Of a stretch of 38,988 nt of DNA, positions 1 through 38,988 are shown piece after piece; the first letter of the stretch is position 1; each line of letters starts with the position of its first letter. The stretch is from Candidatus Symbiothrix sp. Its GTDB lineage: Bacteria; Bacteroidota; Bacteroidia; Bacteroidales; Azobacteroidaceae. Where the stretch lies: positions 1 through 38,988 of the forward strand of contig JAISKM010000096.1 in the NCBI GenBank assembly GCA_031261285.1, given 5' to 3'. The notes under the pieces are model-generated. The model saw only the letters and a program-made list of their open reading frames with translations. It made no database searches and had not been told where the DNA came from. The translations under genes were made by a program, and so were the position numbers.

Positions 1-450
1 TTGAAAAACCTTCGCTGGACTATCAGTAATTTGATGGAAGCCGGTGAGAGTGCTACCACTTATGAAGGCTTGGATGTGAATCCTGCTCCTTCGGCCGGTC
101 AACGAGGCTATTACTACACTTGGCTTCAAGCCAAGCCAACAGGCGATGATGATATCTGTAAGAAACACTTAAATCGCTATTACCGCCTTCCCACTGATGC
201 CGACTGGGCCTTACTGATAGCCGGCTATGCGTCGATGACGGAAGAAGAGAAAGCCGCTTGGAAAGGTATTTCTTCACTGGCAGGCTACCGCCACAGTGGC
301 GGCACGTGGCTCAACTGGAATTACAACGGCAAGTGGTGGAGCAGTACGGCTACCGACAAGAGCAATTCCATTGATACCGCCGGCACGTGGGCTGCACCAA
401 CAACCACAGCAGGCTTTTGGCTTTCAGTACGCTGTGTGCGAAACATCTAA
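1..450 (+). CDS. FISUMP-type surface protein, 3' end only
   Basis: This is the C-terminal part of a Fibrobacter succinogenes major paralogous domain protein (FISUMP, TIGR02145 type). Visible family marks are KNLRW near the start, the YRLPTDADW segment, a WWSSTA block and the closing SVRCVRNI. The first codon is TTG at the window edge and the frame is open there, so the real start is almost certainly upstream and the gene is cut by the window. FISUMP domains occur in secreted or surface proteins of Fibrobacter and Bacteroidetes; the molecular role is not established. A second FISUMP gene on the opposite strand ends at the other edge of the window with a similar C-terminus (KYLKCVKNI), and both genes are followed by the same hairpin element. 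Confidence 0.8.
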   Translation: MKNLRWTISNLMEAGESATTYEGLDVNPAPSAGQRGYYYTWLQAKPTGDDDICKKHLNRYYRLPTDADWALLIAGYASMTEEEKAAWKGISSLAGYRHSGGTWLNWNYNGKWWSSTATDKSNSIDTAGTWAAPTTTAGFWLSVRCVRNI

Positions 451-483
451 GCACACAACTAAACGAACATCCGTTTATATGCT

Positions 484-598
484 GGGCTTTCAGCCCGCAA
501 ACTGGATGGATGTTCACCACCACCACCCCAGGCGATGCCTGGGGCTAGGATATATTACCCTTTCAGGGTAAAAAAAATACCAAGTAGGCTGCAAGCCT
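484..598. repeat. Cluster of four short perfect palindromes
   Basis: Four perfect or near-perfect inverted repeats follow the FISUMP stop codon: GGGCTTTCAGCCC (484-496), CCCCAGGC-GAT-GCCTGGGG (526-544), TTACCCTTTCAGGGTAA (555-571) and AGGCTGCAAGCCT (586-598). The minus-strand ORF called across this region is repeat read-through, not a gene. Each palindrome could form a small hairpin in RNA. They look like dispersed intergenic repeat units of the kind common in Bacteroidetes. Confidence 0.75.
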
Positions 599-616
599 TA
601 TATAACCTAGCCCAAT

Positions 617-720
617 GGCAACGCCTTGGGTAATGTAATGATCAACGGCAACGTCTTGGGCAATGTGACGGTAATGGCAACGCCTTGGGTAAATGTAATG
701 ATCAACGGCAACGCCTTGGA
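617..720. repeat. Tandem repeat, about 30 bp unit, four copies
   Basis: The core GGCAACGCCTTGG (one copy has GTC for GCC) begins at 617, 647, 676 and 707, a period of 29-31 bp. The spacer resembles TAATGTAATGATCAAC, though units differ slightly. No coding function is apparent. Confidence 0.8.
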
Positions 721-733
721 TAATAATTGGTTT

Positions 734-808
734 AGAAAGAGCACCCGCACGGGTTTTTGTACATAGTTTCGTTTCGTTTTTTTTCCGGTGCGGGTCTCTT
801 TCTTTTTT
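734..808 (+). repeat. Hairpin element shared by both FISUMP loci, copy 1
   Basis: The left arm AGAAAGAGCACCCGCACGG (734-752) pairs imperfectly with the right arm CCGGTGCGGGTCTCTTTCT (785-803). The loop is about 32 nt and contains TACATAGTTTCGTTTCG. A T-rich tail follows, so it could act as a factor-independent terminator for the upstream FISUMP gene. A near copy lies in the opposite orientation at 37861-37928, again downstream of a FISUMP gene. From 809 to the GH51 stop at 1013 I see only AT-rich DNA and no supported gene. Confidence 0.8.
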
Positions 809-17931: not shown

Positions 17932-18127
17932 TGCAATGACTTGTTACTGTGCATTATTACTGATAAAATAAAAGGAGTTAAGCCGAAAATCCTGTAAAGA
18001 GTAGGCACAATAGTAAGAAGAGAGAAAAGAATAGAGTTTACATTTTAATATATTGATAATCAGCATATTAAAAAAAACTTAATTTATATAATGTCTAATT
18101 ATTAACATATAGTTAAAACATAAAATT

Positions 18128-18265
18128 ATGCAACAGTTTTCAAAAAAACAGCAGCACGCCGATTACGACACGAGAGTAATGGAGTCCGGAGACCATTTCA
18201 AAAACGGGGCAAGTCCGAAAAGCCACAAGATTAGGGTAAACTTTTTAACAACTAAACACTATTAA
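18128..18265 (+). CDS. Possible 45-residue ORF before the protease genes
   Basis: The 340-bp gap from 17932 to 18269 is AT-rich and holds one short ORF, starting MQQFSKKQQHADYD and ending NFLTTKHY. It has 45 residues, no signal peptide and no known domain. It ends 4 bp before the ATG of the Spi-like gene, which is compatible with translational coupling or a leader function. No clear TAnnTTTG box was seen in this gap. Chance is a real alternative. Confidence 0.35.
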   Translation: MQQFSKKQQHADYDTRVMESGDHFKNGASPKSHKIRVNFLTTKHY

Positions 18266-18269
18266 AATC

Positions 18270-18779
18270 ATGAAAAGAATATTTATTTTTTTAGCAGCGG
18301 CAACCATTGCATCGCCGCTTTGGAGTAAGTCCATAAATGAGAGTATAGCTCTCGAAGTAGCAAATCAGGTTTTATTGCATTCATCTGCAACGCTTCGTAG
18401 TGGCGATGATACGCAACAGAAATCATTGCAACTGCTGTACACAAGCAGCAGTAGCAATATTGACAACGAAAATGTTGATGCAGCTCTGCGTTCGGCAAGT
18501 GCCAACGAAACCGTTTATTTCTATGTATTCGGTGGTGAAAATAACGAGGGCTTCGTTATTGTTTCAGGTGACGACCGCGTTGTTCCGGTGTTGGGATATT
18601 CTGACACGAACGGTTTCTCTGCCGATGATATGCCCGACAATCTGAAATGGTGGCTTGGCGAGTATGCTCGACAAATTCAATTTGCCATAGATAACGACAT
18701 TGCGCCTACGCAGGAAGTGCAACAGCAATGGACGCAATATCTTGGTAATAACAATGACAGAAAGGAAGAACAAAAATGA
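18270..18779 (+). CDS. Spi-like C10 protease propeptide encoded separately
   Basis: This 169-residue secreted protein (signal peptide MKRIFIFLAAATIASPLWS) matches the Spi/streptopain propeptide family. Marks are VYFYVFGGENNEGFVIVSGDDRVVPVLGYSDTNGFSADDMPDNLKWWLGEYARQI. In most Bacteroidetes C10 proteases this sequence is the N-terminal pro-region of the same chain. Here it ends as its own protein and overlaps the protease gene by 4 nt (ATGA). By analogy with streptococcal Spi next to SpeB, it probably inhibits or chaperones the downstream protease in the periplasm. It could also be a former pro-region cut off by a gene rearrangement. Confidence 0.85.
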   Translation: MKRIFIFLAAATIASPLWSKSINESIALEVANQVLLHSSATLRSGDDTQQKSLQLLYTSSSSNIDNENVDAALRSASANETVYFYVFGGENNEGFVIVSGDDRVVPVLGYSDTNGFSADDMPDNLKWWLGEYARQIQFAIDNDIAPTQEVQQQWTQYLGNNNDRKEEQK

Positions 18780-37840: not shown

Positions 37841-37860
37841 AATCACAATGGTTGTAAAAA

Positions 37861-37928
37861 AGAAAGAGACCCGCACCGGAAAAACGAAACGAAACTATGT
37901 ACAAAAACCCATGCGGATTCTCTTTCTT
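37861..37928 (-). repeat. Hairpin element shared by both FISUMP loci, copy 2
   Basis: This is the inverted copy of 734-808. Read on the minus strand it has the same loop (TACATAGTTTCGTTTCG), the identical arm CCGGTGCGGGTCTCTTTCT and a T-tail. The other arm has a few changes from copy 1. It lies about 160 bp past the stop of the FISUMP gene at 38092, in the same relative orientation as copy 1 to its own FISUMP gene. Confidence 0.8.
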
Positions 37929-38091: not shown

Positions 38092-38988
38092 TCAAATATT
38101 TTTCACGCACTTCAAATACTTACCGGTTGTCACTGCAGAAGTCGTGCAGGGAGAAGTACCAATAATATTGCAAATATACGTCGACAAATACAGTTGAGTT
38201 ACAGGGGAACAAGGATTATCTTGACCTCCAGGCTGGCAAGTATAACCATACGTATTATACGTTGTAGCATTGCATGAGGGCACAGTGCAGGATGGAGCCT
38301 TCGACTCGCAAGATGCTGCCACTATATCCCAGCGGTAAGTGGGTGATGAAGGACTCGCAGTGTTAGTATCGAAATTCGATTTCGCCCCAGTTGATCCCTG
38401 CACGATAGTTCGAAATTTTATTTCACATCCACCACTGACAGTGGAAGATACGCCGGTATTAGAGCTCCAATAATCTGTATTACTAAGAGGCACCTTCAAC
38501 GATGCAGCAGCAGCGACGAGTTCATCAGCACTTGGAACGCGCCATCCACCACTGCACGCAACATTTGCATTCGACACATCAGACTGCGACGATGCCCAGC
38601 AGAGCCCACCGTAAATTAAACCCCCATCACAATTGTTAGTGACGGCTATCACGTCATCTGCTCCCTCCCGACTTGGGCTCGCCCCTCCGTGGCTTGCATT
38701 AGCTACAACGCTTATTGTCGATTCCGACAGTTCTTCATCTTCCGATCCCTGAATCAGCGTCAGTAGATACTGATTTGCAGCACTCCCGGTTTCGCCCGAG
38801 AACTTTTCGGTCGGATACGTCCAGGTAAGACTTGTAGCTCCGGCAGGCATATTGGTTGTCACTGCCAACACATCGCCCAGTTCCAATGGTACATGGCCGC
38901 CGGTATCAAAATTGATTGGTGCCGGTTGTACCGGATTTACGTTTATAGCTACTTCGCTTTCGGTGAGTTTGGCTGTTGCCGTGACATC
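38092..38988 (-). CDS. FISUMP-type surface protein, 5' end cut by window
   Basis: The track calls a start at a TTG (38886), but the frame stays open to the window edge (DVTATAKLTESEVAINV...), so the gene continues beyond it. Visible parts are a beta-rich N-terminal section (VTTNMPAGATSLTWTYPTEKF, LLTLIQGSEDEELSESTISV), a FISUMP-like block (GGLIYGGLCWASSQSDVSNA, CSGGWRVPSADELVAAA, TDYWSSNTG) and a cysteine-rich tail ending GKYLKCVKNI. This is a large secreted or surface protein related to the FISUMP gene at the left edge. Its function is unknown. The 3' hairpin element at 37861-37928 follows it. Confidence 0.8.
   Translation of the reverse strand, partial: DVTATAKLTESEVAINVNPVQPAPINFDTGGHVPLELGDVLAVTTNMPAGATSLTWTYPTEKFSGETGSAANQYLLTLIQGSEDEELSESTISVVANASHGGASPSREGADDVIAVTNNCDGGLIYGGLCWASSQSDVSNANVACSGGWRVPSADELVAAAASLKVPLSNTDYWSSNTGVSSTVSGGCEIKFRTIVQGSTGAKSNFDTNTASPSSPTYRWDIVAASCESKAPSCTVPSCNATTYNTYGYTCQPGGQDNPCSPVTQLYLSTYICNIIGTSPCTTSAVTTGKYLKCVKNI

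Follow-up and report, generated by a model that had tools for sequence, protein, structure and literature searches.

A hairpin with a conserved loop at the 3' ends of FISUMP-type genes in a Candidatus Symbiothrix genome and its possible action on FISUMP start regions

Results

The locus and its two hairpin copies

The window, that is the whole stretch of DNA analysed here (38,988 nt), is the entire contig C90 (G000:C90) of a 2.83 Mb genome, which is 98% complete and divided into 171 contigs. The PNPase of this genome was closest to those of a Bacteroidia single genome record, Dysgonamonadaceae MAGs, Candidatus Symbiothrix, and Candidatus Azobacteroides. Taken with two near-complete congener genomes of 1.0-1.2 Mb, this makes a probable placement in the termite-symbiont clade around Azobacteroides. 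A FISUMP-type gene followed by a hairpin is found at each end of the window, and the features are as follows.

1 to 450, plus strand: 3' part of a FISUMP-type secreted lectin-like gene, product ending in WLSVRCVRNI; the contig begins within the gene
451 to 733, plus strand: interval of about 285 nt between stop codon and hairpin, with repeats
734 to 808, plus strand: hairpin element of family A with loop type I, defined by sequence, fold, genome-wide matches, and a covariance model
734 to 753, plus strand: left arm AGAAAGAGCACCCGCACGGG with a one-base bulge, from fold and alignment
754 to 784, plus strand: loop of the first copy, with the core TTCGTTTCGTTTTT at 768-781 and TTGTACATA at 757-765
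785 to 808, plus strand: right arm CCGGTGCGGGTCTCTTTCT, then the U tract
37860 to 37928, minus strand: second hairpin copy, of the same family and loop type
37880 to 37907, minus strand: loop of the second copy, with the identical 28-mer
38092 to 38988, minus strand: FISUMP-type gene, product ending in KYLKCVKNI; its 5' part lies beyond the contig end

The gene at 1-450 matched PF09603 with an E-value of 1.9e-5, under the curated cut-off, and its paralogs (87-97% identical) stand before other copies of the hairpin. The gene at 38092-38988 is a more diverged FISUMP relative, which was recognised by its C-terminal signature and its paralogs. The loop TTTTTGTACATAGTTTCGTTTCGTTTTT is the same in both copies apart from three extra T in the first, and one arm is nearly identical while the other differs (CACCCGCACGGG versus GAATCCGCATGGG). 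The sense-strand RNAs were predicted to fold at -29.2 and -27.6 kcal/mol (z-scores of -6.3 and -5.3, shuffled means of about -12.6). The earlier note on this DNA had described two copies on opposite strands that share the loop and one arm, each 3' of a FISUMP-type gene, and this arrangement was confirmed in the sequence. The stop-to-hairpin interval amounts to only 2 nt after members of the same gene family as 1-450 in two other loci (L008 and L009). Within this interval of the window, between the FISUMP stop codon and the hairpin, positions 520-720 contain short tandem-like repeats (CAACGCCTTGGGTAATG) and a CCAGGCGATGCCTGG hairpin. Elsewhere in the window, the Rfam motifs DUF805b and DUF805 were found in tandem at 17972-18241, just 5' of the gene at 18270.

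Copy number, species range, and association with FISUMP genes

The loop 28-mer gave 49 genome-wide matches with up to 3 mismatches and the reversed control gave 0, so the number of loop matches is far above chance. With the covariance model, 69 copies were found in the genome (34 on the plus and 35 on the minus strand), scattered over about 60 contigs. The 20 copies beyond the 49 of type I are more diverged, and most of them carry a second loop type that retains TTCGTTTCATTTTT and has an altered 5' half. Loop types I and II both occur behind the same gene subfamily (L001 versus L234 and L239).

The covariance model found 0 copies in 60 relatives, 36 of which are congeners, and neither DNA nor pattern searches recovered homologs in the congeners. 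Exact loop patterns were absent from the sampled GTDB and IMG/VR contigs, the element was not found in the phages or plasmids searched, and no relevant Rfam match reached the gathering score. One match in G074 (L041) extended over 29 nt, had no comparable hairpin, and was judged to be due to chance.

The check proposed beforehand in the earlier note was the association of the element with FISUMP genes. It held for 58 of the 60 testable copies, nine of the 69 being left out for having less than 400 nt of upstream sequence. These 58 lie 3' of a FISUMP-type gene on the sense strand, a count that includes a short ORF sharing the N-terminal module. As for exceptions, one copy (L229) follows a 60-aa ORF of the FISUMP N-terminal module type and another (L232) stands between unrelated genes, away from any FISUMP gene. 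The proteins encoded before the copies are very different (endings VRCVRNI, LKCVKPYI, IRCTRPI, and YRCVKSM), and their C-terminal stretches are unalignable while the flanking parts align, yet the hairpin is nearly constant. A canonical FISUMP subfamily (C87, C100, C9, C130, and C57:362) stands without the element. The near-complete congener genomes of 1.0-1.2 Mb (G003 and G023) gave no PF09603 match, as expected if adhesins were lost in reduced endosymbionts.

It had also been proposed that the inverted pair could let the intervening 37 kb invert, a suggestion that the genome-wide view did not support. The window is a complete contig and the copies are dispersed. Of the 69 copies, 49 have a contig end within 2 kb on the upstream side, and only one has such an end downstream. 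Since the contigs break within the repeated FISUMP gene, the terminal copies face inward; the facing-in arrangement is thereby explained by the assembly, and the reason for assuming an inversion is removed.

Strand of the fold and terminator features

In the left arm of the stem, A to G and C to T account for most of the changes, and these give G-U pairs only on the gene strand. In 37 distinct copies, 48 cells with G-U pairs were counted in the sense and 20 in the antisense orientation, and the sense RNA was more stable than the antisense RNA in 42 of 49 copies. As the stem changes favour G-U pairs on the gene strand, it is probably the 3' end of the mRNA that folds. A comparable bias would be expected of single-stranded DNA from the same strand, and the main argument for RNA is therefore the position inside transcription units. 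Covariation on both sides of the stem was absent from an alignment of 21 sequences.

The stem contains GC and is stable, and after it comes a U tract, with a mean of 6.1 T in the first 9 nt (67 copies); the length of the T run differs between copies, so the 3' boundary of the element is variable. They stand at the ends of transcription units, as the next gene begins at a median distance of 91 nt in convergent and 148 nt in codirectional arrangement. As read from these features, the element is a sense-strand hairpin at the 3' end of FISUMP transcription units, usually with a U tract. A GC-containing stem, a U tract in most copies, and the unit-end position resemble an intrinsic (Rho-independent) terminator; unlike such a terminator, the element has a loop of about 30 nt with an almost invariant 28-mer, whose core is common to hairpins without a U tract.

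Conservation of the loop and its occurrence on other stems

Over the 49 type I copies, minor letters made up 11 of 1372 cells in the loop (0.8%) and 117 of 625 in the middle stem (18.7%), with 30 of 784 in the outer stem and 254 of 441 downstream. That the loop is better conserved than the arms, noticed for one of the arms on the two window copies, is thus borne out by the comparison of the loop with the middle stem.

The loop core UUCGUUUC(A/G)UUUUU also occurs in at least four further hairpin families beside FISUMP genes. By searching for its reverse complement AAAAATGAAACGAA with at most one mismatch, 116 matches were obtained against 5 for the reversed control, and many of those outside family A are hairpin loops belonging to at least four further families, whose stems are unrelated:

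Family B: AATTCCCGGAAACCTCGTTAC..GTAATGAGGT..GGGAATT, directly after A or alone after a FISUMP gene, no clear U tract
Family C: ATCCCGGC..GCCGGGAT, further 3'
Family D: AAGATCCCGCGC..GGGGATCTT, on the 5' side, no clear U tract
Family E: ATTCCCCC..GGGGGAGT, on the 5' side

Family E (L246, L255, L259, and L260) and family D in L262 stand about 95 nt before FISUMP ATGs, i.e., in 5' leaders, downstream of sequences that resemble TAnnTTTG, the -7 consensus of Bacteroidetes promoters. Where D occurs in other loci, and where C stands near the end of a contig, the FISUMP gene next to it would lie off the contig. For families B, D, and E, the copies listed were likewise more stable on the sense strand, as were all of C except one. 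Because the same core sits on stems that are unrelated to one another, some of them in 5' leaders and some lacking a U tract, termination alone is not the common cause. The loop thus appears to be under a constraint of its own, which is common to several stem families. The role in RNA that the earlier note had suspected is supported by the G-U bias of the sense strand, the 3' end position, and the loop shared with other hairpins.

Complementarity of the loop to FISUMP start regions

Two sequences that occur at many FISUMP starts, UAUGUACAA(AUG) and AAAAAUGAAACGAA, are complementary to the loop, and these start regions are for this reason the likeliest partner of the loop. The motif UAUGU(A/G)CAA (DNA: TATGT[AG]CAA) was found in 9 of 37 starts of FISUMP units and in 0 of 172 other starts, with a purely descriptive p of 7e-8. 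Because the motif was spotted before it was counted and the FISUMP starts are paralogous, the p-values are descriptive, and the match is a strong lead rather than a proof. Exact core matches outside the hairpins were few, and three of them are start codons of FISUMP units (AACGAAAAAAATGAAACGAA twice in L252 and AAAAAAATGAAACGAA in L256). Moreover, the type I loop includes the segment TTGTACATA, whose complement TATGTACAA stands directly before the ATG of another FISUMP class. Most FISUMP starts match just the generic A-rich part.

The pairing of the type I loop with the start region in L096 was calculated at -28.5 kcal/mol, and two unrelated starts reached -25.8 and -23.2 kcal/mol. By comparing the pairing energies at FISUMP and other starts, better pairing with FISUMP starts was obtained for the loops of families B (5e-12), D (3e-8), C (4e-4), E (4e-3), and A2 (0.03), p-values that are likewise descriptive for paralogous starts; the comparison was not significant for the type I loop (A1, p of 0.09) or for the C2 loop. 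A search for a separate RNA that could pair with the middle part of the type I loop returned only the elements and background.

DGR cassettes and hairpins of the congeners

The genome contains four DGR-type reverse transcriptases, on contigs C138, C96, C170, and C114. Their best solved relative is 8ub7, annotated as a reverse transcriptase, which we take to be the Bordetella phage DGR enzyme. The cassette on C138 (L090, G000:C138:1-14000, minus strand; L085) consists of a FISUMP target, a short ORF read as a putative Avd, a TR, and the reverse transcriptase. All 22 mismatches between TR and VR fall at TR adenines (22/22), over 151 nt from the start of the match. A TR was also found on C96, and none was found for the enzymes on C170 and C114. 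The element-bearing loci L030, L031, L035, and L079 share the 3' end and the putative IMH of the C138 FISUMP target.

Five congeners (G014, G002, G036, G018, and G020; loci L136-L213) have their own conserved, species-specific 3' hairpins after FISUMP genes, which are unrelated in sequence to the element:

G014: hairpin class CCTGAGTTTTGG..CCGAAACTCAGG (also given as CCTGAGTTT..CCGAAACTCAGG), whose loop of about 37 nt is conserved as well
G002: AAACCTTCCAAGTCTT..AAGACTTGGAAGGTTT
G036: AAACCTGACAT..ATGTCAGGTTT

No match to a DGR reverse transcriptase was obtained in G014, G018, G020, or G036. Since G014 and G036 are among these, the 3' hairpins belong to these gene families and not to the DGR.

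Discussion

The best-supported explanation combines termination or end protection by the stem with a regulon-wide function of the loop. We hypothesize that the 3'-terminal hairpin ends the FISUMP mRNA and that its loop acts on the FISUMP regulon, most likely as an antisense sequence at start codons, and we give this reading about an even chance. The stem would terminate or protect the mRNA in the manner of an intrinsic terminator, and the exposed loop would serve as a recognition site across the whole FISUMP gene family, with the translation start region of FISUMP mRNAs as its most likely partner. Antisense action at these starts is the most specific mechanism compatible with the data. In one variant, the 3' end of the mRNA would pair with a 5' end, either that of the same molecule or that of a sister FISUMP mRNA; in another, a small RNA derived from the 3' end would repress sister FISUMP mRNAs.

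A simpler view is that of a plain intrinsic terminator, which spread with the duplicating FISUMP genes and whose loops are alike through youth or gene conversion. The U tract, the end-of-unit position, the unrelated 3' hairpins that congeners have after their own FISUMP genes, and the limitation to one species all fit this view. However, youth or conversion should protect stem and loop alike, whereas the middle stem varies about 23 times more, and the same core sits on unrelated stems, even in 5' leaders and in hairpins lacking a U tract, so we regard it as unlikely. The loop may otherwise be the site of an RNA-binding protein that coordinates the FISUMP regulon by a CsrA-like logic, the start-codon match being secondary. 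CsrA/RsmA hairpins present one loop motif (GGA) on many stems, in leaders and other RNAs; the element shares this design, but its motif is U-rich and a candidate protein was not identified. Such a protein would fit a loop that stays conserved while its stems vary, in 5' leaders as well as 3' ends, and global RNA binders such as RbpB exist in Bacteroides (PMC11697453). The antisense match to FISUMP starts would be left unexplained, and this reading seems slightly less probable still than the plain terminator.

Explanations at the DNA level fare worse. If the element were a site of recombination or mobility (REP/MITE-like or attC-like) by which FISUMP cassettes are moved or shuffled, this would accord with the fixed orientation, the hairpins on both sides of some units, the two loop types behind one gene subfamily, and a RAYT-like transposase ORF on C170. 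Integron attC sites are species-specific hairpins 3' of diverse genes, with conserved stem ends and a variable loop; the element resembles attC sites and superintegrons in being species-specific, in following many diverse genes, and in its fixed orientation, but its copies are dispersed on about 60 contigs, its loop is conserved, and no attC core (GTTRRRY) was seen. REP/BIME sequences are interspersed intergenic hairpins associated with RAYT transposases, which follow many genes and have no long conserved loop; the element is likewise interspersed, intergenic, and confined to one species, but it is almost confined to one gene family and has a long conserved loop. Where MITE or REP elements would occupy varied sites in either orientation with fixed ends, 58 of 60 copies follow FISUMP genes on the sense strand, almost none lies away from them, and the variable T run gives no fixed boundary. 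In addition, copies were absent from the relatives, phages, and plasmids searched, and the contig with the RAYT-like ORF lacks the element, so a mobile site is very improbable. The ORF itself lies at 11367-11816 of L091, at the end of C170, with no copy nearby.

The least credible of the readings, to which we give hardly any weight, makes the hairpin part of a DGR target site for mutagenic retrohoming into FISUMP variable regions. In its favour are the four reverse transcriptases and one cassette, a textbook case, whose target is a FISUMP gene. Such a site would stand directly after VR/IMH in every target, but the distance from stop codon to hairpin ranges from overlap to about 900 nt, the resident target of the C138 subfamily does not have the element but a different, AT-rich hairpin 3' of the putative IMH, and the FISUMP-rich congeners G014, G018, G020, and G036 gave no reverse transcriptase match; this candidate was rejected.

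Returning to the preferred reading of a terminating stem with a regulatory loop, its closest parallel is FopS with RbpB in Bacteroides thetaiotaomicron, a set of multicopy sRNAs (14 copies) with a seed that is single-stranded at the 5' end and targets susC mRNAs (PMC11697453). In that system, a family of related RNAs, each with a terminator hairpin at its end and one derived from a 3'UTR, acts near start codons of surface-protein mRNAs (PMC11697453), and the element would resemble it in these respects. It differs from FopS in that its seed-like sequence lies in the loop, it has 69 copies, and it is tied and complementary to the same gene family. A further step would be a self-referential antisense network, in which loops at the ends of adhesin mRNAs, carried by several stem families, target the starts of the same family, so that some adhesins repress or tune others. 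We regard this extension as possible but on the doubtful side. If true, a large and partly hypermutable adhesin repertoire would be controlled by RNA loops within the adhesin mRNAs themselves, a compact means of coordinating dozens of surface proteins or selecting among them. The closest relatives with a name belong to the Bacteroidales and include Candidatus Azobacteroides and Candidatus Symbiothrix, symbionts of termite-gut protists, for which attachment to the host plausibly matters. The search rule of one loop on many stems could also expose hidden RNA regulons more generally.

Two types of long 5' leaders were observed before FISUMP genes. The second conserved type (L097, L246, L255, L259, and L260) ends in hairpin E, about 95 nt before the ATG, and had no Rfam match. 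In L248, L251, L262, L263, and L265, a terminator with a U tract stands close to the promoter of a long leader, and a segment further downstream can pair with this terminator. The L262 leader has matched changes in the terminator and the pairing segment (CTCTTTATA to TTCCTGTA), which suggests a 5' leader attenuator.
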